DNA of 64,000 bases from Candidatus Pyrohabitans jungbluthii (GTDB lineage: Archaea > Hydrothermarchaeota > Hydrothermarchaeia > Hydrothermarchaeales > BMS3B), in assembly GCA_002010065.2 (NCBI GenBank), contig MTMD02000014.1:68534-132533 (forward strand), written 5' to 3'. A program made the translations under genes and the position numbers. The notes under the pieces are model-generated. The model worked only from the letters and a program-made list of their open reading frames with translations. It did not search any database and had not been told where the DNA came from. Below are positions 2,461 to 13,251 of the stretch, piece after piece; within the stretch, counting starts at the first letter, position 1, and the number at the start of each line of letters is the position of its first letter.

Positions 2461-2655
2461 TCAACAAACTCCTTCTTTGAATTCTATATCAAAAAGGTCT
2501 TTATTAAACCGCCTCTTAAAAATATCTTCTGCAAGCTTTTTAAACTCCGGAAACTCCCTCGCAAACTGGACAAACAGCTCTCTTGCATAATAAACACACC
2601 CACCATCAGCAGAAACCATTATTTTAAGAATCTTTTTTGCTTCTTCTTTATTCAT
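2461..2655 (-). CDS. 64-residue protein at end of type I RM operon
   Basis: The ORF track gives 119 residues, but the first ATG preceded by a strong GGAGAGGAGG ribosome site is at 2655, giving a 64-residue protein starting MNKEEAKKIL. It overlaps the last bases of the DUF45 protease gene, so translation is coupled. It is helical and charged with two cysteines; I recognise no family. As the last gene of the restriction operon it may be a small partner or regulator, which is inference from position only. Confidence 0.6.
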   Translation of the reverse strand: MNKEEAKKILKIMVSADGGCVYYARELFVQFAREFPEFKKLAEDIFKRRFNKDLFDIEFKEGVC

Positions 2656-3412
2656 GTATACCTCCTCTCCATTCCCTCCATGATACCTCTGAAAATCTAT
2701 GAGCTTGGAAACATGCCTTATTACCATTAAAAATCGGCAGCTTATAGCCAGTGTGGATATAAAACCAATACTCAGTAAGCTTCTTTTCATTGGCTTTAAA
2801 GTCTTCAAACTCCTTTTCAACGATGCTCCAGAATCTCTTGCTGTGCCTCTTCTCTTTTAGATGTACTACTTCATGGAAAACCACATACCTCATCAACTCC
2901 TCTGGAAGCACAGCCAGCTTCAAATTAAAGCTAAGATTGCCGTTTGAGGAGCAGCTTGCCCACTTGCTCCTCTGATTTTTAATGAAAATTTTCCCAGGCT
3001 TCAGACATAACTTCTCAGAATATTCCTCCACAGCTTCCTCAATTTTCTCTCTGAGGATTTTCCTGATCTGCTTTTTAATCTTCCTGTGGTGTGCTTCACT
3101 TTCAGGATTTATTAATACCTTACCCCTCTCAAAATCGATGCTTGGTTCTTCAGATGGGACTATCTTTAACTTCCTGCCGAAAAGGATAGCCTCATCTTCA
3201 TCGAGGCTTTCATTTATCTTATTTACAACCTCCTGAATTTCCCTGTACTTCCGAATTATCCAGCTTTTCTTCCTCTCTAAAATATCCTCCTCGCTCTTCA
3301 TATTCTCGGGAAGCACCACAAGAAGCGAGCCCGTTTTGAACTCCAGCCTGGGGTACTTCACTCGCCTCTTCTCTACTCTGTATTCAACTTCAACCCCGTT
3401 GGCTTTAAACAC
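2648..3412 (-). CDS. YgjP/DUF45 zinc metalloprotease of the RM operon
   Basis: A 254-residue protein with the YgjP-like (DUF45) metallopeptidase signature: RSKWASCSSNGNLSFN followed by FHEVVHLKEKRHSKRFW, where HEVVH supplies two zinc histidines and the glutamate and the downstream histidine is the third ligand. I chose the GTG one base after the hsdR stop rather than the ORF-track start, which lies 60 bases inside hsdR. To my knowledge these proteases are often found next to type I restriction genes, but their substrate is not established. Confidence 0.8.
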   Translation of the reverse strand: MFKANGVEVEYRVEKRRVKYPRLEFKTGSLLVVLPENMKSEEDILERKKSWIIRKYREIQEVVNKINESLDEDEAILFGRKLKIVPSEEPSIDFERGKVLINPESEAHHRKIKKQIRKILREKIEEAVEEYSEKLCLKPGKIFIKNQRSKWASCSSNGNLSFNLKLAVLPEELMRYVVFHEVVHLKEKRHSKRFWSIVEKEFEDFKANEKKLTEYWFYIHTGYKLPIFNGNKACFQAHRFSEVSWREWRGGIHE

Positions 3413-3413
3413 A

Positions 3414-6400
3414 TCAGTCCAGCTCTTCAAAGCCCTGCATGATCTTCTCATGTATCTCCTTCCTATCCTCAAAGCTCAGCTTATCCTTGAACCTCCTCAA
3501 AAACCTCATCAGCTCCCTGCCCACCTCCTTCTTAGTGGTGCTCTTCCTGCTCCACCCCTGGAATAGCTTCCCCTTTTCCACGAGCTGCTGAACAAAACCT
3601 TTTACATCTTGAATTAGCTCCTCAGCTTTGCTCAGCCTCTCCTCCAGCACCACAAGCATTAGATACTCGTGCTCGCTGAGCTTGAGCCTCTTCTTCCTCT
3701 CCTCAAGCTCAATGAGATTTTTAACCTCCTTCTCAAGCTGTGAGTAAGCCTCCTCTATCGCTAACTTCCTCTGCTTCCACTTTTTTATTATCCTCTCCAC
3801 CCTCTCGGCGATGGGCTCATACACCGGGTTGCTCGCCTTGTCAACGAGCACGTACCTGTTTAGGGTGAAAATCATGTCGTATATCTTCGCCTCAGCATCG
3901 CCATAGGCTTTGCTCAGCTTCTCCAAGTAATCCTCATCCAGCCTGAGAATTGGGAACTCCTCTTTTATCCTGTCAACCTCAATGCTTCTGTGTATCGCCT
4001 CAAGCGTCTTGGGGTAGTACTCCTCTACTTTTTCTCTCACCACCAGAGCTTTAGGCTCCTGCTCGGGGTACTCTGCCTCCTCACTGGGGTCTCTCCTCTT
4101 TGCGTATCTGCTGTAGGCGATGTAAACCTGAGTTAGCCACCCGAAGCGCGAGGCATGCTGTGCCTTAACCGGATGAGAGCCCAGAAACTCAAAGAGGTTT
4201 CTGAGCTTTCTGTAGTTTTTGAGAAAGAGCTTTGCCTTTTTTTCATCCTTAGCTAATAATTTTACAGCAGACATCAGCGTAGCCCTGTCGTCTTTGCCCT
4301 TATCAATCCCCTGGAATATCTCCTCTGTGTCCCCAAGAAGTGTGACGAACTCTTGAGCCTTTTCATCGATGCTTATGAGCACCCCTTCAACGTCTTGCTT
4401 CTCGTAGTCTTCTAAGGCTTTCTCGAATTCTGCGAGAATGCCCACGTAGTCAATAATCAGCCCCGCTTCTTTAACGCTCCTGTACGGGCGGTTGGTTCTC
4501 GCCACCGATTGGAGAAGCCTGTGCCCTTTCAGTGGCTTGTCCAGATACATAACCTGTAGCACAGGTGCATCGAAACCCGTGAGTAGCATGTCGGTAACCA
4601 CGAGTATCTTGGGCAGCTTGCCATTTTTGAACTTCTCTACAATCTCCTCCTTTATCTCCCCCACATCCTTGCCCGGGAACCTCTCTCTAAGCTCCTTAAG
4701 GTAGTCAGAGATAATCTTTTCCTTCTCAACCCTGTTGTAGGTCATCACCACCTCAACATAGCCTTTCGGTAAAAGCGTGTCCAACTCCCTCTTGTAGTGC
4801 ACGCATGAAGCTCTATTCACCGCCACAACCATGGCTTTAAACTTCCCGTCCACCTCCCGCAAAAAGTGCTCTGCAATATCGCTGGCGACCCTCTTTATCC
4901 TTCTCGGATTGGAGAGCACCACCTTAATTTTGTCCAGCTTTCTGCTTATCTTCTTCTCCACCTCTTCCTTCAGCTCTTCAGGAATTTCCTCCTCTTCATA
5001 CTCAAGAAAAGCCCTGAGGAGGTTTTTTCTCAGCACTATGTCGCTCTCCATCCTCGTTTGAAAGACTATGGGCAGGGTGAAGCCGTCCTTCAGCGAGTCG
5101 AGAACAAAGTACTTGTGCAGGTAGAGCTCTCCTTTATCTGGATAGGCAAACTCCAAAAAGGTGTCTCTCCCCTTCTTTGATATGGGCGTACCCGTGAAAG
5201 CAAAGAAGAAGGCGTTTCTAAGTATGTTCTTCATCTGCGAGGCAAGGAGACCGTACTGAGTGCGGTGTCCTTCGTCTATGAACGCTATAACGTTCTTCCT
5301 TGTTGCTATCGTCTCTCCTAAGCCCTGCGCTTCCAGCTCTCTGGCAAGCTCCTCAAGCTCCTTAGGCTGGAACTTGTGGATAAGGGTGATGAATATCCCC
5401 CTCTTTCCTCGCCCGGAGTCGTGGCTCAGCACCTCTCTCAGCTTGGCTATGGAGTCTATCACCTCCGGCTTTATCTCCACATCGAGTGCTGAAAACTCCT
5501 GCCTGAGCTGCTCCTGAAGCTCCACTCTATCGACAACGAAAAAGATGGTGGGGTTCTCTAAGCTTCTGTGCCTGTACAGCTTGAGCGCCGCGAATATCAT
5601 TGTCAGCGTCTTTCCGCTGCCCTGCCAGTGCCACACTAGCCCGTGGTTTCTTTGGTCTTCTCCCCTCAGGTTGCGGAGCACCCTCTCGTAAATCATGTTC
5701 GCAGCTTCGTACTGCATGTATCTGGGCAGCACCTTCGTTATCCTGCCCCTCTCTTCCCTCACAAAGGTGAAGTTCGCCAGTATGTCCAGCAGAGTGCGCC
5801 TCCGCAGCATCTCCAGCGTCGCCTCAAGCTCGTCCAGCTCACCAGCGCGCCAGCGGTATATGCTTACCTCGTCTGCCTCCCTCACATTGGGGAAGTACCT
5901 CGCCTCCTGCTCCGCGGCGATGCTGAACTGCACATATTTAAAAAGCTCGGGCACCGTGCTCTCATACTCCTTGACCTGCCTGTAGGCATCCCGCCATGAG
6001 ACGCTTGCATCCGCAGGATTCTTGCACTCTATCAGCACCAGAGGCATGCCGTTAACGTATAGCACAAGGTCGGCTCTTATTCTCTCAGCAGCACCCTCAA
6101 AGCTCACCTGCCTGCTCACCACAAACTCATTCTTTGCAATATCCTCTAAGTCAACCAAACGAGCAAGCATCAACTCCCTGCTCTTCTCCAGCTTTATCCC
6201 CACACCCCGCCTGAAAAACCTCAGAAACTGCCTCGTGCCATGTATAGACGCGGGCAGGCTCTTTAGCTCCACAAGTATCCTGTTTATGTCCCCCTCTGTA
6301 AGCTTCTCCCCGTTTATCCTCCTCAGAGCACTGGCTAAGCTCCTCTCCAGCAGGGGCTCAGCCAAGCTCTCCCTCTCTAACGCCTGCGCTGGCACAAAGC

Positions 6401-6470
6401 GCCAGCCCTCTTCCACGAGTTTTTCAATGATGTAGTCCTCGACGGCGCTCTTCTCGGTGAAGGTGGGCAT
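3414..6470 (-). CDS. hsdR: type I restriction enzyme R subunit
   Basis: The 1018-residue restriction/translocation subunit. The N-terminal PD-(D/E)xK nuclease has D134 and E148-x-K150 (ADLVLYVNG, LIECKNP). The SF2 motor follows with Walker A WQGSGKT near 272-278, DEGH near 389-392 and the later motif SVARTNRP. A long helical C-terminal part would dock on HsdM/HsdS. The length is normal and all key residues are present, so it looks functional. Its start overlaps the end of the HEPN-like gene by 47 bases, and its stop is one base from the start of the DUF45 gene. With HsdM and HsdS it would cleave unmodified foreign DNA in the cytoplasm. Confidence 0.95.
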   Translation of the reverse strand: MPTFTEKSAVEDYIIEKLVEEGWRFVPAQALERESLAEPLLERSLASALRRINGEKLTEGDINRILVELKSLPASIHGTRQFLRFFRRGVGIKLEKSRELMLARLVDLEDIAKNEFVVSRQVSFEGAAERIRADLVLYVNGMPLVLIECKNPADASVSWRDAYRQVKEYESTVPELFKYVQFSIAAEQEARYFPNVREADEVSIYRWRAGELDELEATLEMLRRRTLLDILANFTFVREERGRITKVLPRYMQYEAANMIYERVLRNLRGEDQRNHGLVWHWQGSGKTLTMIFAALKLYRHRSLENPTIFFVVDRVELQEQLRQEFSALDVEIKPEVIDSIAKLREVLSHDSGRGKRGIFITLIHKFQPKELEELARELEAQGLGETIATRKNVIAFIDEGHRTQYGLLASQMKNILRNAFFFAFTGTPISKKGRDTFLEFAYPDKGELYLHKYFVLDSLKDGFTLPIVFQTRMESDIVLRKNLLRAFLEYEEEEIPEELKEEVEKKISRKLDKIKVVLSNPRRIKRVASDIAEHFLREVDGKFKAMVVAVNRASCVHYKRELDTLLPKGYVEVVMTYNRVEKEKIISDYLKELRERFPGKDVGEIKEEIVEKFKNGKLPKILVVTDMLLTGFDAPVLQVMYLDKPLKGHRLLQSVARTNRPYRSVKEAGLIIDYVGILAEFEKALEDYEKQDVEGVLISIDEKAQEFVTLLGDTEEIFQGIDKGKDDRATLMSAVKLLAKDEKKAKLFLKNYRKLRNLFEFLGSHPVKAQHASRFGWLTQVYIAYSRYAKRRDPSEEAEYPEQEPKALVVREKVEEYYPKTLEAIHRSIEVDRIKEEFPILRLDEDYLEKLSKAYGDAEAKIYDMIFTLNRYVLVDKASNPVYEPIAERVERIIKKWKQRKLAIEEAYSQLEKEVKNLIELEERKKRLKLSEHEYLMLVVLEERLSKAEELIQDVKGFVQQLVEKGKLFQGWSRKSTTKKEVGRELMRFLRRFKDKLSFEDRKEIHEKIMQGFEELD

Positions 6471-7443
6471 TTTTAGTCACTCTTTTTAGATGTTTTTCTA
6501 ATTCTACATCAAAATTTTTGATTATATTACCTAAAATTATAAATATTTTGTCTAAAGAATCTACTATGCCAAGTCCTGGCTTATAATCTGTTGGCTTAAG
6601 TTTTCCATCTGGATACCTCGTATATGAAAAATGTGGATAAGTAATTACAGATAATATAAAAATACAACCAGAAATTCCAAAGAGTTTAATTATTTTATCT
6701 ATATTTTCATGAGTATAAGTTAAATTTCTGTCTATAGAATTCAATTCATGTTCGGGTAAATTTACCTTTTTTAGATTTTTAAGTAAATCTATTTTGAATT
6801 TTTTTATAGTTTTGCGGAGCTGTCTTATATCCACATTTTTATCAATTTTAATGAATTTTTTACATAACTCTAAATAAACATAAATTTCATTTTTATCCAT
6901 TTTTGCTAATCGTTCTGGTTTACGTTCTATGTATTTTTTTAGTTTATCTATATCAGATTTATTAATTTTCTTTTTCAAATAATTGCATTTATTCAAACAA
7001 TCAATTACCTTTTCCATATTATTAAGAAATATAAAAAATGTTCTCGGCGTAATATGGCTGATAGTTTTATTTTCATCATTCTTCCTAAATAATTTGGTTA
7101 ATAAACCACCTTTTATTTCTTTTTTCCTGCCGTATAAGTCATTCTTTTTGATGATGCCTAAATATAGGCCATATCCTTTGGAAATTTTCTCTACAGCTTG
7201 CTGTAAATGATATACTGACAATGACCAAATTTTTTCTTTACTTAATAATTTTGCTGCTTTATAATCCTCTTTTGCACAATATAAAAGAGAAGAAATATAT
7301 TCTGCATTTCTAATATGTGTTTGGTTATGAATATATTTTTCAAGGTATTGATATAGCTCTAACACGTCTTTTAAACTAATATTTAGGCCGGCAGTTTTAT
7401 TTGCAGTATTAATCGCAACTTGAATAGCCTTAATATTTGTCAA
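6424..7443 (-). CDS. HEPN-like protein inside the RM operon
   Basis: A 339-residue, lysine- and isoleucine-rich protein. Residues about 55-95 (AKEDYKAAKLL, then YHLQQAVEKISKGYGL) match the HEPN four-helix pattern in which an HxQQAxEK helix is typical. Further on, R239-N240 to H245 (RNLTYTH) resembles the Rx4-6H catalytic motif of HEPN ribonucleases, though one residue longer than the commonest spacing. A hydrophobic stretch near 255-270 could be buried or membrane-touching. It starts in the ATGA-type overlap with the hsdS stop and overlaps hsdR, so it is made with the RM subunits. Base composition is much more AT-rich than hsdR. The ribonuclease role is inference. Confidence 0.6.
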   Translation of the reverse strand: MTNIKAIQVAINTANKTAGLNISLKDVLELYQYLEKYIHNQTHIRNAEYISSLLYCAKEDYKAAKLLSKEKIWSLSVYHLQQAVEKISKGYGLYLGIIKKNDLYGRKKEIKGGLLTKLFRKNDENKTISHITPRTFFIFLNNMEKVIDCLNKCNYLKKKINKSDIDKLKKYIERKPERLAKMDKNEIYVYLELCKKFIKIDKNVDIRQLRKTIKKFKIDLLKNLKKVNLPEHELNSIDRNLTYTHENIDKIIKLFGISGCIFILSVITYPHFSYTRYPDGKLKPTDYKPGLGIVDSLDKIFIILGNIIKNFDVELEKHLKRVTKNAHLHREERRRGLHH

Positions 7444-9203
7444 ATTTTCACCCTCCTTCTCCCTGTGAGCAAATCATTCATCAACCCCTTCTTAATCCTC
7501 TCTAGCTTCTCCTTTCGCTTCTTCTCCAGCTCCAGTTTTTTGTCCATTGTGCTCAGGATTTCGGCGATTTTTTGTTGTTCGGGAAGGGGTGGAAGTGGGA
7601 TTTTAAAATTCTTTATAATTCTAACATTTAATTGTGGCTGAGCAGTACCATACGCAATCCTCTTAATTTGAGTTTTAAGAAAAGGTGTTCTAAAAAGTAA
7701 ACATAGGAATTTGTTATCAATATTTTTATTTTTGTTTCTAAGGATGACCATTCCTGAGTTTATTCGTATGTGTTCATAGGGCACATTATCATCATAATAT
7801 CCAACATTTCCAATTGTTCCACGAGTGGTTAAAACAATATCGTATCTTTTCAATTTTCCCTTGCCCATTTTAGAATCTTTTTCTTTAGAAATGAATTGAG
7901 TTTCTGTAAATTTAAATCCACTTTCGGTAACATTTTTTGCATTTAAAAAGAGACAAAATCCTTTATTCGAAAAATCTGATTGTTTAGGATAATTCACTCC
8001 CCTATCTCCATCTATTACTTCTATATTGGCATGTACTAGCCTAACCACCTCCCATTCCTCTGGAATCCTACCAATCTCGGAATCCTTAAATTTTCTATAT
8101 TCTCCCTTCAAAAATTGCTCAAATGTTATGGCATGTCCACCAAATTCAGTGGTTACTAATCTCAGATTTTTGTCATTGCTTACAAGAATTAGATTATTTT
8201 TAATGGAAGTTTCGGCTATTAGTGCATCTCTTATTTGATTTTCTTTTGTTTTTTTTCCAGTTTTTTCATCTAATTCTTGAAGCTTCAATAATATTCTATC
8301 ATATAAATCTCCTTCACCAAATTTTGAATTATCCCATCTAGAAATGTCGAAAACTGTTGTTTCTGTCAGAATTACGTTTTGTTCTAATTTTTTAAAAATT
8401 TCTAAAAGATTGCTTCTTCTTTCTAATTTCTCAGTTTTTTTAATGTTTTCAATTTCATCTTTTTGAATGTGTGTAATGTAATAGTTATATTTGGTAGGGA
8501 GTTGATCCACACTTATTTTACCGTCTAATATGGCATCAAATATATTAGTATCAAACATAAAACCATTAATAATTCCTTTTGTCAAAAGCTCCTGCATCAA
8601 GCCCCTCTTCAGCCTCTCAGTCTTGGCTATGACGGCGCTGACTTTCTGGATGGCATTGTCCACCGTGCTTAAGATTTCGGCGATTTTGTGTTGTTCTGGG
8701 AGTGGTGGAAGGGGGATTAGGAGATTTTCTAGGTTTTTTCTACTAATTCTTGACCTTGTTGCCCCTGCTGATAATCTCATTGCTTCTGCTAATATCTTGG
8801 GACTATTTAAAATATATACTAGGAATCTTTTATCTACTCTTTTTTTATTTACTTTAAGTATTGTAATATCTACAGCAACAATATAAGGATAGGGAAGTTC
8901 TGGAGCAATGCATGCTCTCCCTATTGGTTCAGGCATTCTTGAAATTAAAATATCCTCTTTTGGTCGCACAAAAGTACAACTTAGTTTTTTTGCTGAATCA
9001 TATGAAATAAATCTATTTGATTTATCTAAAAATCTACCTATTCCAATATCCCCAACTTGTAAGAGTCTAACACCCTCAGAAGTATAATATTTTTTAAGTA
9101 TCCAATCACCATCTTTTAACTTTCCAATTTCCTTATCCCCAAGCCTCATAACCTCCCAATCCTCTGGGATTTCTCCGATTGGGGTTTGCTTAAATTTTGT
9201 CAT
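7440..9203 (-). CDS. hsdS: type I specificity subunit with internal PIN domain
   Basis: A 587-residue HsdS, about 150 longer than usual. Order: first target-recognition domain (1-160), conserved helical linker (161-211, LLIPLPPLPEQHKIAEILST), a complete PIN-type nuclease domain (about 212-368), second recognition domain (372-535) and second linker (PLPPLPEQQKIAEILSTMD to the end). Normal HsdS runs from LTKGI straight into KFKDSEIG; here the PIN domain sits exactly at that joint. Its acidic residues D218, D249/E250, D326 and D344 fit a metal-dependent ribonuclease site. The frame is open throughout. Overlaps of 4 bases join it to the rhomboid-like and HEPN-like genes. Confidence 0.9.
   Translation of the reverse strand: MTKFKQTPIGEIPEDWEVMRLGDKEIGKLKDGDWILKKYYTSEGVRLLQVGDIGIGRFLDKSNRFISYDSAKKLSCTFVRPKEDILISRMPEPIGRACIAPELPYPYIVAVDITILKVNKKRVDKRFLVYILNSPKILAEAMRLSAGATRSRISRKNLENLLIPLPPLPEQHKIAEILSTVDNAIQKVSAVIAKTERLKRGLMQELLTKGIINGFMFDTNIFDAILDGKISVDQLPTKYNYYITHIQKDEIENIKKTEKLERRSNLLEIFKKLEQNVILTETTVFDISRWDNSKFGEGDLYDRILLKLQELDEKTGKKTKENQIRDALIAETSIKNNLILVSNDKNLRLVTTEFGGHAITFEQFLKGEYRKFKDSEIGRIPEEWEVVRLVHANIEVIDGDRGVNYPKQSDFSNKGFCLFLNAKNVTESGFKFTETQFISKEKDSKMGKGKLKRYDIVLTTRGTIGNVGYYDDNVPYEHIRINSGMVILRNKNKNIDNKFLCLLFRTPFLKTQIKRIAYGTAQPQLNVRIIKNFKIPLPPLPEQQKIAEILSTMDKKLELEKKRKEKLERIKKGLMNDLLTGRRRVKI
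7549..7600. repeat. direct repeat copy 1 in hsdS conserved region
   Basis: Encodes the second PLPPLPEQ linker of HsdS. It matches 8665-8716 in the same orientation at about 45 of 52 positions by eye. The copies are 1.1 kb apart and bracket the PIN domain plus the second recognition domain, so recombination between them could delete or swap that block. Confidence 0.7.
8100..8570 (-). other. PIN ribonuclease domain inserted in HsdS
   Basis: Domain-level annotation within hsdS. The segment begins FMFDTNIFDAIL (strand 1 with the first aspartate), has QKDEIENI (second acid), RDALIAETSIKNNLILVSND (third and fourth aspartates) and ends TFEQFLKG, the usual end of a VapC-like PIN fold. It has its own methionine (M216) just before FDTN, so the insert is the size of a complete free-standing PIN protein. 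A weak AAAGGAA lies about 15 bases before that ATG, so internal initiation giving a separate PIN protein is conceivable but unproven. Confidence 0.8.
8665..8716. repeat. direct repeat copy 2 in hsdS conserved region
   Basis: Partner of the repeat at 7549-7600, encoding the first PLPPLPEQ linker. Such paired conserved regions are normal in HsdS and drive shuffling of recognition domains; what is unusual here is that the PIN insert lies between them. Confidence 0.7.
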
Positions 9204-10153
9204 CTTAAAAGCCTCCGGCTCAATTTTTCACATATCTGATAAAGTTGTGGTATCTTCTCCATGACTGAGGGTACAATCACACCAAAACAAAAGCCAACAT
9301 AATGTGCCAATATGTTAATCAAGTTGGTACCTCTTCGTATTTCAGAAGGTATTAGATTTGGTAGGGAAAATAGATAAACTATAGCTATTACAAAAACTCC
9401 CACTCTATAAGATAAAATAGGCGGGTGATTAACAAGCTCTTTTAGTTTTTTGAGATAGTGAATAGATATTTTTTGCATGGTTTTAAGATTGATTAAAAGA
9501 AACACAATTGAAATAACAGCCAATAGTACTTTTATATGTATTGGTGTGCCTAAATTAATAATTCCCACTATTGAGAGATTTACAAGGATAAGAAAGCTAA
9601 AAAATTCTGCTTTTACTGAGAGAGTTGATACCTTCTTTAAATAATTATAGACTGCAAAAATAAAATAACCTATCAAACCAGAAACAATTGCAGAAAAACC
9701 ACTTATTTTGGGGATGTTTGGCGTAAAAATAATGTTACTTAAAGAAGATACAAAAGGTAAAATAATAAAAATTAAAAATGATGATACATAAAAGATTTTC
9801 TTATTTGTCTCAACATTGAATATCAAAAAGATTATAAGAAAATATGTGATTATGTTGCTTAAAAAATGTTTATACTCTAAATGGGTGTAATGGGAGAGGA
9901 ACATAGTTAATATCGTTGGGTTTGAGACTATTAAGGTAAAAGATTCCTTCATATCTGGAGGTAATGAATATATTAATACGAGGATTCCAGGCAAGATCAA
10001 GAAGAAAAGCAAAAAGTCATACAGATTCCAGATAACCAGGACTGGATTAAGTTTTATCACTTTTTCAATACATTTCCTTTTGACCAAATAATCTCCAAAA
10101 ACGCCAAGTAATTGCCAAATAATTGCCAAGTTATTTGAGGACATAGTGGACAC
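9200..10153 (-). CDS. rhomboid-like intramembrane serine protease
   Basis: A 317-residue membrane protein with at least six hydrophobic helices. It shows three rhomboid landmarks: HFLSN (H96 to N100, the oxyanion-side HxxxN of helix 2), SGFSAIVSGLIGY (candidate nucleophile S154, GxSx) and AHYVGFCFG (candidate catalytic H284, AHxxGxxxG). Sequence is divergent and AT-rich. It lies between the AlbA_2-type gene and hsdS with short overlaps to both, so it is made as part of the restriction operon. A rhomboid there is unexpected; a role in releasing or sensing something at the membrane is speculation. Confidence 0.65.
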   Translation of the reverse strand: MSTMSSNNLAIIWQLLGVFGDYLVKRKCIEKVIKLNPVLVIWNLYDFLLFFLILPGILVLIYSLPPDMKESFTLIVSNPTILTMFLSHYTHLEYKHFLSNIITYFLIIFLIFNVETNKKIFYVSSFLIFIILPFVSSLSNIIFTPNIPKISGFSAIVSGLIGYFIFAVYNYLKKVSTLSVKAEFFSFLILVNLSIVGIINLGTPIHIKVLLAVISIVFLLINLKTMQKISIHYLKKLKELVNHPPILSYRVGVFVIAIVYLFSLPNLIPSEIRRGTNLINILAHYVGFCFGVIVPSVMEKIPQLYQICEKLSRRLLR

Positions 10154-11483
10154 CTCGTCCCTTCCCTCTTACCTGAAGAATGCCCTTTGCGACCAGCTCA
10201 TTCAAATCAAGCCTGGCGCCTTCATCTGAGAGTCCAGAGAGTTCTCTATATTCCCTATTCGTAATCCTCCCCTTCTCCTTTACGTACATCACCGCCTTGA
10301 TCTGCCTTTCATTCAATCCCAGGCTGCGGAGGTATTCTTCTGTGTAGATGTCCTTTCTGAAGATCACCCAGAAGCCCCGGCGCTCCTCAAACTCGGGCTC
10401 AGGAAGCGATGCGCTGAGGCAGGCTTTTCTCATCTTGTCTATGCCGGAGCCCCACTGTTCGATTAGCCCCATGTCGTAGAAGACTCCTGCGATGCCCTTG
10501 TTTCTGAGTACTGAGGAGTGGGGTTTGTAGAGGTCTTCGATGGTGATGCCGTAGGGTAAGCCTCCAGGGCTCCACACTACAAGCCTGTCGTCGTATATCC
10601 TGATTTCAACGCTGGCAGGGATGGTGTAGTCCCTGTGGCAGACGGCGTTGATAACCGCCTCCCTCAAAGCTTCCAGAGGATATTCCCAGACCTCCTCCCT
10701 CTGGGGTTCGCCTGTCATCACAAAGCTTACGCTGATGTGCTTGCGAATAAAGTCCATTGCTTCGTCCACCTGCTCAATTACTGTGCCGCCTATCATGCGG
10801 TCGTCGATTATCGTGGTTTCTCCTCTGAACCTGCCGCAGTGCACCGTCGCTTGAGAGAGAATACGCTGAGGTTCTCTGCCGAAGAGAAGCAAAGCCGCCC
10901 AGGTGGGCTGATTGTCTTTTATCAGGTCTAACTTTTCAAGAACCTGAAGGTGGTCTTCGTCCTCGGAGATATTCCTCCTTCCTGCGCTGTTGGCTCTCTT
11001 TATATATCTTTTTACCTTCTCGGGGTCTATATCCTCCAAGGTTGCGTCCCTCGCTGGGAGCTTGTCCCAGCTCATCCCAGCGGAGGCGAAATGCACCTGG
11101 GCAATCTCCTGGGGCTGCATAGCTCTGTTGCTGTTTCCCACCCTTCTGTAACATCTTCCTCGCACAGATACCGGCTTGATTGGAAACTCTTTAATCGTTA
11201 TAACAACAACCTTTTTCCCATCTGCCTCCTCAAGCTCAACCTCAGGGATAACTCTCGGCTCTGTGCTCTGAGAAATCTGATTTGCCCACTCTCGCAGAGT
11301 TTCTTTTCCGATATCCACGCCCTTAATCTCGCCGCTGTCGGAGACGCCTATGATTATTGCCCCACCCCTTGTGTTGGCAAAGGCTCCGGCGGTGACGATT
11401 ACCTCCCTGTTGAAGTATTCCTTAAATTCGACGGTATCTGACTCTCCTTTACTTATTAGTTCATTTAAATCCACCATCACCAT
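10131..11483 (-). CDS. AlbA_2/Schlafen-type protein with HATPase_c_4 and wHTH
   Basis: About 450 residues. The N-terminal AlbA_2 (Schlafen-like) domain shows ESDTVEFKEYFN, then NTRGGAIIIGVSDSG. The middle resembles the COG2865 ATPase-type region (EALREAVINAVCHRDY, VWSPGGLPYGI, GLIEQWGSGI) and the last 70 residues form a winged helix (EKGRITNREYRELSGLSD). COG2865 proteins are called putative transcriptional regulators or RecG-like accessory ATPases. I start at the ATG at 11483, 23 bases inside hsdM; an ATG at 11477 is also possible. The track start at 11513 is probably too long. In this operon it could be a regulator or an added nucleic-acid effector. Confidence 0.8.
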   Translation of the reverse strand: MVMVDLNELISKGESDTVEFKEYFNREVIVTAGAFANTRGGAIIIGVSDSGEIKGVDIGKETLREWANQISQSTEPRVIPEVELEEADGKKVVVITIKEFPIKPVSVRGRCYRRVGNSNRAMQPQEIAQVHFASAGMSWDKLPARDATLEDIDPEKVKRYIKRANSAGRRNISEDEDHLQVLEKLDLIKDNQPTWAALLLFGREPQRILSQATVHCGRFRGETTIIDDRMIGGTVIEQVDEAMDFIRKHISVSFVMTGEPQREEVWEYPLEALREAVINAVCHRDYTIPASVEIRIYDDRLVVWSPGGLPYGITIEDLYKPHSSVLRNKGIAGVFYDMGLIEQWGSGIDKMRKACLSASLPEPEFEERRGFWVIFRKDIYTEEYLRSLGLNERQIKAVMYVKEKGRITNREYRELSGLSDEGARLDLNELVAKGILQVRGKGRGVHYVLK

Positions 11484-13251
11484 TAAACCCCAGCTCCGCC
11501 AGATAATCCTCAATCTTCTCCTCTACGCTGGCGATCTCCCTCTCTATAGCCCTGAGCTCTTCCCACTCCTTGGCTACGTCTATCTCCTCAAGCTCCTCCT
11601 GCGGGAAGACGTAGAGGGTGACGTTGAGGTTGAAATCGTTCACTTTAATCTCATCAAGGCTCACAACCCTTGAAAATCCGTCCCCGTCCTTGAATTCTCT
11701 ATATGCCTGGGCTATCTTTGAGATGTGCTCCTCGCTGAGGCGGTTGAGCTTCCTCACCTCGGGGTGCTGCTCGTACTCCTGAGAGGCGTTGATGAATAGC
11801 ACCTTACCCCTTCGCTCTTCAGGCTTGTTCTTGTTGAAGATAAGCACAGCGCCTGGTGCACCAGTGTTGTAAAACAGCTTCTCAGGGAGCAGAATCACAC
11901 ACTCTACTAAGTCTTCCTCCAGCGCCCTCTGCCTTATGGCTCGCTCTTTGCCTCCGCGGAATAGGCAACCGTTGTCAATAACCACGCCTACCCTACCCTT
12001 TTCGTCATCTGCGCTCGCCAGCATGTGCTGAATCCATGCCCAGTCTGCTGACTGCTTCGGGGTAAAGCCGTACTTGTACCTCTCCCTCCAGAAGTCCGCC
12101 TTTTTTAAAACGCTCTCGTCGTAACCGTCCTGATTCCATGGGGGATTTGCTATAACCACGTGGAATTTCTTAAACATGCTGTCCTGGAGAAACTTTGGAT
12201 AGATCAGGGTATCACCCTGCCTAAGCTCTGCATCCCTAATATCGTGAATGTAGAGGTTCATCTTGCACAGCGCCAAGGTAGTGGCGTTGGCTTCCTGACC
12301 GTAGAGGAAGAGCCTCTTTGCCTCCTCTGGACCGTGCTTCTCCTTAACGTGGTTGTAGGCGAGGATGAGCATGCCTCCAGAGCCACAGGCTGGATCATAA
12401 ACTTCCTCTCCCGGCTTGGGATCGAGAATCTCAACCAGTAGCTTTATAACCTCCCGTGGGGTATATACCTCGCCCTCCTTTGCCTTCTGCGGTGCAAAAT
12501 AGCGCAGAACCCATTCGTAGGCGTCGCCTAAAATATCCGGCGAAACATGGTGGAGTTTTCTGGCGCTGAATAGCTCAACAAGCTGCCTGAGAATCTCAAA
12601 GTTCTCAGTGCTGCTGGTGAACTGAAGAAAGTCTGCCCTGTCAACGACGTCTTTAAGCTCCGGGTTGCGCTCAGCGATAACCTTAAGCGCCTGGGAAAGC
12701 TTCACAGGTAGCTGGTTCACATCCCTTCTGATATTCTCCCACAGGTACTCCTGGGGTATATCAAAATCGTGGTAATACTTGCTCTTCGCCTCCTCCCTCG
12801 CCTCTTCTTCGGTTAAACCATCGGCAAGAGCTTCCCTGTAAGCCCGCTCGTACTCCAGCTCCCACTTGTCGCTTATCCTCTTGAGGAAGAGGAGAATGAG
12901 GATAAACTTGTAGTCCACCCTGGTTCTTATTAAATCTGCCGCCTTCTTTAGAAGACTCTCCAGCTCCTCACGGGTTAGCTTCTCTCCGGGGGAAAGTCCC
13001 TCTCTGATTATGTCCCTCTTGCTCTTCAAGATATACACCCGCCTTCTGGCGTCGGCTTCGTCTATTCTCGCTTCAAGCCAGCCCGCTTTCCTAAGCTCTG
13101 AGAGGATTACGTTAATGTTATTCTTAGGGTCTTTAAACCTCTCCCTCAATACCCGGTAGGCATCTTCTCTTGTAAAAGCTTTTTCTTGGAACACTTCAAA
13201 AAGGGCTTCGTGCCTTACTTCGAGCCACCTGGGGAGTGTAATTTCACCCAT
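11461..13251 (-). CDS. hsdM: type I modification methyltransferase, wHTH-fused
   Basis: The 596-residue adenine-N6 methyltransferase. The SAM-binding motif DPACGSGGML is at about 286-295 and the catalytic NPPW at about 369-372. The HsdM helical bundle precedes the catalytic domain (about 85-270). Residues 1-80 (RHEALFEVFQEKAFTREDA, NNINVILSELRKAGWLE) look like an extra winged-helix domain, which might allow autoregulation of the operon. It is the first gene of the minus-strand operon and has its own TATA-like promoter. Confidence 0.93.
   Translation of the reverse strand: MGEITLPRWLEVRHEALFEVFQEKAFTREDAYRVLRERFKDPKNNINVILSELRKAGWLEARIDEADARRRVYILKSKRDIIREGLSPGEKLTREELESLLKKAADLIRTRVDYKFILILLFLKRISDKWELEYERAYREALADGLTEEEAREEAKSKYYHDFDIPQEYLWENIRRDVNQLPVKLSQALKVIAERNPELKDVVDRADFLQFTSSTENFEILRQLVELFSARKLHHVSPDILGDAYEWVLRYFAPQKAKEGEVYTPREVIKLLVEILDPKPGEEVYDPACGSGGMLILAYNHVKEKHGPEEAKRLFLYGQEANATTLALCKMNLYIHDIRDAELRQGDTLIYPKFLQDSMFKKFHVVIANPPWNQDGYDESVLKKADFWRERYKYGFTPKQSADWAWIQHMLASADDEKGRVGVVIDNGCLFRGGKERAIRQRALEEDLVECVILLPEKLFYNTGAPGAVLIFNKNKPEERRGKVLFINASQEYEQHPEVRKLNRLSEEHISKIAQAYREFKDGDGFSRVVSLDEIKVNDFNLNVTLYVFPQEELEEIDVAKEWEELRAIEREIASVEEKIEDYLAELGFNGDGGFK

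Follow-up and report, generated by a model that had tools for sequence, protein, structure and literature searches.

The locus analysed here raises the question of why a gene resembling those of rhomboid intramembrane proteases lies among the genes of a type I restriction-modification (RM) enzyme, and whether its product is part of that enzyme. The gene, here called rho, lies in the window (the whole stretch of 64,000 nucleotides analysed, from a host genome of 1.99 Mb whose gene content reads as archaeal), and we confirmed its location within an hsd operon on the minus strand with the order hsdM, AlbA_2, rho, hsdS, HEPN, hsdR and YgjP (Table 1). As a sequence-only reading had proposed, rho lies between the AlbA_2 gene and hsdS and overlaps both, by 14–23 nt on the AlbA_2 side, according to the start codon taken (GTG, with an ATG also present three codons in), and by the 4 nt of an ATGA junction on the hsdS side.

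Table 1. Features of the rho-containing operon in the window
Feature	Position	Strand	Evidence and remarks
hsdM, type I methyltransferase	11461..13251	(-)	N6_Mtase E 2.4e-115, HsdM_N E 1e-15
AlbA_2/Schlafen-type ATP-binding protein, other cargo of the hsdM-hsdS slot	10131..11513	(-)	SLFN_AlbA_2 E 6.1e-24, HATPase_c_4 E 1e-25
rho, rhomboid-family intramembrane serine protease (predicted)	9200..10153	(-)	317 aa, ~8 predicted TM helices, N-in and C-in; family profile, predicted fold
Asn100 codon of HxxxN (oxyanion-type Asn), TM2 start	9854..9856	(-)	50/50 relatives; aligned with HxxxN
Ser154 codon (GFSA), predicted catalytic, TM4 start	9692..9694	(-)	sequence; 50/50 relatives; aligns with GxSG of canonical rhomboids
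His284 codon (AHYVGFCFG), predicted catalytic, start of last TM helix	9302..9304	(-)	sequence; 50/50 relatives
ATGA overlap, rho stop/hsdS start, 4 nt	9200..9203	(-)	equal overlap in G001 (L003 1495-1498)
hsdS, two target-recognition halves	7440..9203	(-)	Methylase_S E 3.3e-53; AT-rich, GC3 0.27
PIN-like domain between HsdS halves	~8079-8564	(-)	PIN E 3.6e-4, just below cut-off; GC3 0.19
HEPN protein between hsdS and hsdR	6424..7443	(-)	339 aa; HEPN E 9e-6; GC3 0.19
hsdR, type I restriction subunit	3414..6470	(-)	TIGR00348 704 bits
YgjP-like metallopeptidase, operon end	2648..3472	(-)	E 4.9e-41

Landmarks, predicted fold and predicted topology of the rho protein

The residues singled out as rhomboid landmarks in the sequence-only reading were found in the reading frame exactly where it had placed them, within H96-F-L-S-N100, G152-F-S154-A (GFSA, 152–155) and A-H284-Y-V-G-F-C-F-G (283–291). 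All 50 aligned archaeal relatives share N100, G152, S154 and H284, and 48 of the 50 share H96, which is replaced by Gly in the two nearest relatives (G001 and G002); the GxxxG following the predicted catalytic His is kept at G287 in 49/50 and at G291 in 47/50. Since four of these residues are invariant in all 50 relatives, the landmark match is not a matter of chance. His206 was considered as an alternative catalytic His and rejected, as it is not conserved among relatives.

A profile of the rho family matched canonical rhomboids of the same phylum with 93.6% probability (E 2e-7), HxxxN being aligned on HxxxN and GFSG on GASG. The window protein itself scored 14.2 bits against Pfam Rhomboid (PF01694), under the cut-off of 22.6, which is a model threshold and not a biochemical criterion of rhomboid membership; its relative L007 exceeds the same cut-off with 29.6 bits. 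The best NCBIfam match was rhombosortase TIGR03902 (E 2.3e-7, residues 87–178), in which membership was rejected, since 30.9 bits falls short of the cut-off of 84. No match for rho was returned by a PDB sequence search or by PADLOC. An AlphaFold2 model built from 8 sequences was of moderate quality (pLDDT 64, pTM 0.62). The comparison with GlpG suggested earlier leaned towards a rhomboid fold: the 20 best PDB matches of this model found by Foldseek were all GlpG (probability 0.89–1.00), though with weak E values of 0.06–0.6; the best match covered ~122 columns at ~3.4 Å, and no match reached E 0.001.

Hydropathy and the AlphaFold2 model both point to about eight transmembrane (TM) helices, and the loops carry 18 Lys and Arg residues on the predicted inside versus 4 on the outside. 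In this topology S154 and H284 would each stand at the start of an out-to-in helix and hence on the same side of the membrane, a predicted placement on which helix order in the model, hydropathy and charge bias agree; the opposite-sides arrangement that would have spoken against a rhomboid is not what is predicted. Relative to GlpG, an extra TM pair with a basic loop (~205–263) is predicted between the Ser and His parts of the protein.

Taken together, the invariant residues and the profile match uphold the earlier claim of rhomboid identity. The assignment draws on the family profile, the predicted fold and the L007 score above the Pfam cut-off, with marginal matches to curated models, and on these grounds the rho protein is almost certainly a rhomboid; it appears catalytically complete and is predicted to be an active protease. 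The analysis thereby draws attention to a family of archaeal rhomboids that has additional helices and is mostly missed by curated models.

The rho gene in a second and a third genome

The slot, gene order and junction recur in G001, a genome of another genus in the same family, in which the operon reads hsdM-rho-hsdS-MNT-HEPN-hsdR and ATGA again joins rho and hsdS. Among the 23 genomes of the phylum compared, the other four genomes of the window genus are devoid of rho. The genome G002 is closely related to G001 (~94% DNA identity in the rho flanks), and its RM operon has decayed (L010 5346-6990): what is left around an open rho frame of 301 codons, 92% identical to G001 rho, is the last ~30 nt of hsdM and a stop-broken piece of hsdS, and an MNT-HEPN pair lies upstream of these remnants. 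Over ~900 nt at 8% divergence, G001 and G002 rho show no net frameshift, while the adjacent hsdS has decayed, and Ser, His, Asn and an open frame are present in the rho of all three genomes. The dN/dS ratio between G001 and G002 was 0.54 for rho versus 0.12–0.36 for neighbouring genes, which indicates mild constraint, so that selection on the orphan G002 copy is weakly shown. Each of the three nearest rho copies has HEPN genes next to it or in its operon. MAG assemblies, it should be borne in mind, may be chimeric.

Relatives outside the phylum and contents of the hsdM-hsdS slot

Starting points for further neighbourhoods were genomes of Methanohalobium, Natrinema, Culexarchaeum and Thermococcaceae as well as haloarchaeal plasmids, the relatives sampled being archaea reachable from these loci, with bacteria covered as far as the matches listed in one pattern scan. 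About 50 rho relatives outside the phylum are standalone genes, and a single one of these (in G573) lies near an RM operon, in convergent orientation and beyond YgjP; linkage to RM is thus not conserved across the family (one of ~50 relatives outside the phylum). On a Halobaculum plasmid, DNA methyltransferase genes lie ~6–10 kb from rho, too far for a link. On a Haloplanus plasmid (L004 11914-14737), a rho copy and an AlbA_2-like gene (E 8e-4) are ~1 kb apart, akin to the window, which may be coincidence. The search for rhomboids in RM loci proposed by the sequence-only reading yielded a second genus with the same ATGA junction, but also some 50 other copies that are mostly standalone.

The HEPN gene of the operon follows another pattern. 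Of the ten HEPN relatives examined, eight belong to type I RM operons, where most of them stand immediately downstream of hsdS, with hsdR next and often YgjP behind it (hsdS-HEPN-hsdR-YgjP); the other two come from short contigs or from the end of a contig. The HEPN protein is a conserved partner of archaeal type I RM, and the neighbourhood pattern of rho is unlike that of this partner. The HEPN protein, followed in L161-L167 and L170 as well as in the window, has a hydrophobic stretch near its C terminus and a motif resembling 'IITYPHxxxxRYP'. The YgjP-like metallopeptidase gene occurs repeatedly after hsdR (window 2648-3472; L135 8227-8907; L162, L163, L165-L167).

In related archaeal operons, the hsdM-hsdS or hsdS-hsdR gaps hold PIN and VapBC-like genes, MNT-HEPN pairs, AAA ATPases, genes of SIR2-like, GmrSD-like and AlbA_2 type and a number of small membrane proteins, named by eye except where matched by phmmer; judged likewise by eye, the share of membrane proteins among this cargo is not above genome level. 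Many toxin-like and defence-like genes were seen in such variable slots (L162-L170, L056, L058, L135), and in G020 and G498 a separate PIN-like gene stands between hsdM and hsdS. The type I RM operon of G498 also encodes a 382-aa protein, nucleotidyltransferase-like by eye, adjoining a TM protein, a pair (L167 5474-6622 and 6742-7245) that could be a nested second defence module.

Lateral history of rho

At identical residues, the same codon was used in window and G001 rho at a rate of 0.65 versus 0.43 after shuffling (z 6.6), compared with 0.39 versus 0.35 for hsdM (z 2.0), 0.44 versus 0.38 for hsdS (z 1.7) and 0.375 versus 0.37 for hsdR (z 0.3). Between window rho and an unlinked Culexarchaeum rho, the rate was saturated (0.42 versus 0.41, z 0.2). 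The high codon identity of rho, with hsdM, hsdS and hsdR near saturation, indicates that rho moved between lineages after the hsd genes had split. The DNA block common to the window and G001 extends ~50 nt into hsdS.

GC3 is 0.29 in rho, 0.27 in hsdS and 0.19 in HEPN versus 0.62–0.68 in hsdM, the AlbA_2 gene (0.62, a native composition), hsdR and the surrounding genes, so that positions 6424–10153 form an AT-rich block inside a GC-richer operon. Codon identity, and GC3 in the comparison with hsdM and hsdR, thus speak against a history common to rho and the three hsd genes. In the tree, the RM-linked rho copies cluster together (SH-aLRT 93), and their sister lineage consists of standalone genes of Culexarchaeum type. 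No rho relatives were found in the viral contigs or phage records searched, and hence there is no direct sign of a viral origin.

Mobile cargo as the best explanation, and its rivals

These results suggest a model in which the variable slot between hsdM and hsdS of a type I RM operon carries, as laterally mobile cargo, the gene of an archaeal eight-TM rhomboid. Through the ATGA overlap, rho would be translated together with hsdS; the protein would be inserted with both ends inside and, by analogy with known rhomboids, would cut a TM substrate near its outer face by means of a Ser154-His284 dyad, most likely independently of the DNA-cutting enzyme. Among the proteins of the window and G001 operons, no clear single-pass membrane protein or other TM substrate was found, the HEPN protein alone having a borderline hydrophobic stretch, and the substrate is therefore probably a TM protein encoded elsewhere, presumably of the envelope or of an incoming genetic element. 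As Haloferax rhomboid mutants differ in S-layer glycosylation, motility, adhesion and cell shape (PMC4343526, PMC11985538), the most natural guess by analogy would be that the protein acts on the envelope and might thereby influence the entry of viruses, and any benefit to the host may be envelope- or defence-related. Because its relatives are mostly standalone, rho looks like mobile cargo and not like a working part of the restriction enzyme. We accordingly favour, with moderate confidence, mobile cargo that is translated with hsdS, has its substrate elsewhere and acts apart from DNA cutting.

The sequence-only reading had instead tied rho to the RM machine, a link that is not supported in view of a mostly standalone family, a history of its own, its survival beyond the RM genes in a third genome and the varied cargo of its slot in other operons; nor does the sequence lend support to the suggested membrane damage sensing or suicide role. 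A rather unlikely variant is that rho is a functional arm of the RM system: its product, made with HsdS, would form a second layer of defence in infected cells and would work in the membrane, where it might cut viral entry or envelope proteins or free an anchored effector. The slot, gene order and ATGA junction directly before hsdS, alike in two genera, could reflect real coupling to hsdS instead of passive cargo, and the HEPN genes close to the nearest three copies point the same way, as does the HEPN hydrophobic stretch (KD 2.03, residues 251–269), which is present in several relatives too. This stretch, however, is less pronounced in some relatives and could be a helix buried within the protein, the two operons encode no clear TM substrate, and membrane proteins in the cargo of other operons are, by eye, not clearly more frequent than in genomes at large. 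Moreover, rho was exchanged independently of hsdM, hsdS and hsdR, outlasted the loss of hsdM and hsdS in G002 and belongs to a mainly standalone family. Distinctly less probable still is the proposal that a rhomboid co-translated with the specificity subunit cleaves a membrane protein in infection, the target being either a protein of viral entry or the hydrophobic stretch of the partner HEPN protein, and thereby couples an envelope event to the nucleases of the operon.

It is similarly improbable that rho is a recent neutral hitchhiker, brought in by recombination at the hsdS 5' end and heading for loss. Its AT-rich foreign composition, fast protein change (dN/dS ~0.5), absence elsewhere in the genus (four genomes) and the shared DNA block reaching into hsdS would all fit such a course. 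Against it stand the occupation of the same slot in two genera, the intact reading frame that retains Ser, His and Asn in each of the three genomes, and the lack of a net frameshift over ~900 nt at 8% divergence while the adjacent hsdS decayed. The weak Pfam match, the loss of H96 in the two nearest relatives and the unusual presence of two more TM helices between those bearing Ser and His might suggest an inactive rhomboid-like membrane protein, that is, a pseudoprotease or scaffold; the invariance of Ser154, His284, Asn100 and Gly152 in 50 members would be unexpected for an inactive family and makes this very improbable indeed.

Should the rhomboid serve defence, intramembrane proteolysis would join the repertoire of restriction loci. 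As cargo, it would instead show that archaeal type I operons have a variable hsdM-hsdS slot that collects unrelated genes, in which a shared operon and gene overlap are no proof of membership in the enzyme.

Comparison with known rhomboids and restriction loci

Archaeal rhomboids vary in their number of TM helices, the RhoI and RhoII proteins of Haloferax volcanii having nine and six, respectively (PMC4343526, PMC11985538), and RhoII additionally a zinc finger and an operon shared with endV (PMC11985538). In this variation they resemble rho; RhoI and RhoII have envelope phenotypes and, unlike rho, neither is described as lying in an RM operon (PMC4343526, PMC11985538).

With GlpG-type rhomboids (MEROPS S54, PF01694), rho has in common the TM2 HxxxN, the GxS at the start of TM4, the His with GxxxG in the last TM helix and a predicted N-in topology. 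It differs from them in its predicted eight or so TM helices, of which a hairpin, together with a basic loop, separates the Ser helix from the His helix, in its score below the Pfam cut-off and in the Ala, instead of Gly, that follows the predicted catalytic Ser in the window protein. Rhombosortase (TIGR03902) provides its best NCBIfam match, yet at 30.9 bits versus the cut-off of 84.

We found no record in the open-access literature of a rhomboid among the accessory genes of RM loci. The rlo and mlo genes of Campylobacter are unrelated genes, some of them of AlbA_2 type, situated between the hsd genes of type I RM loci, and what they share with the slot occupied by rho is precisely this presence of unrelated inserts between hsd genes, those of AlbA_2 type included.
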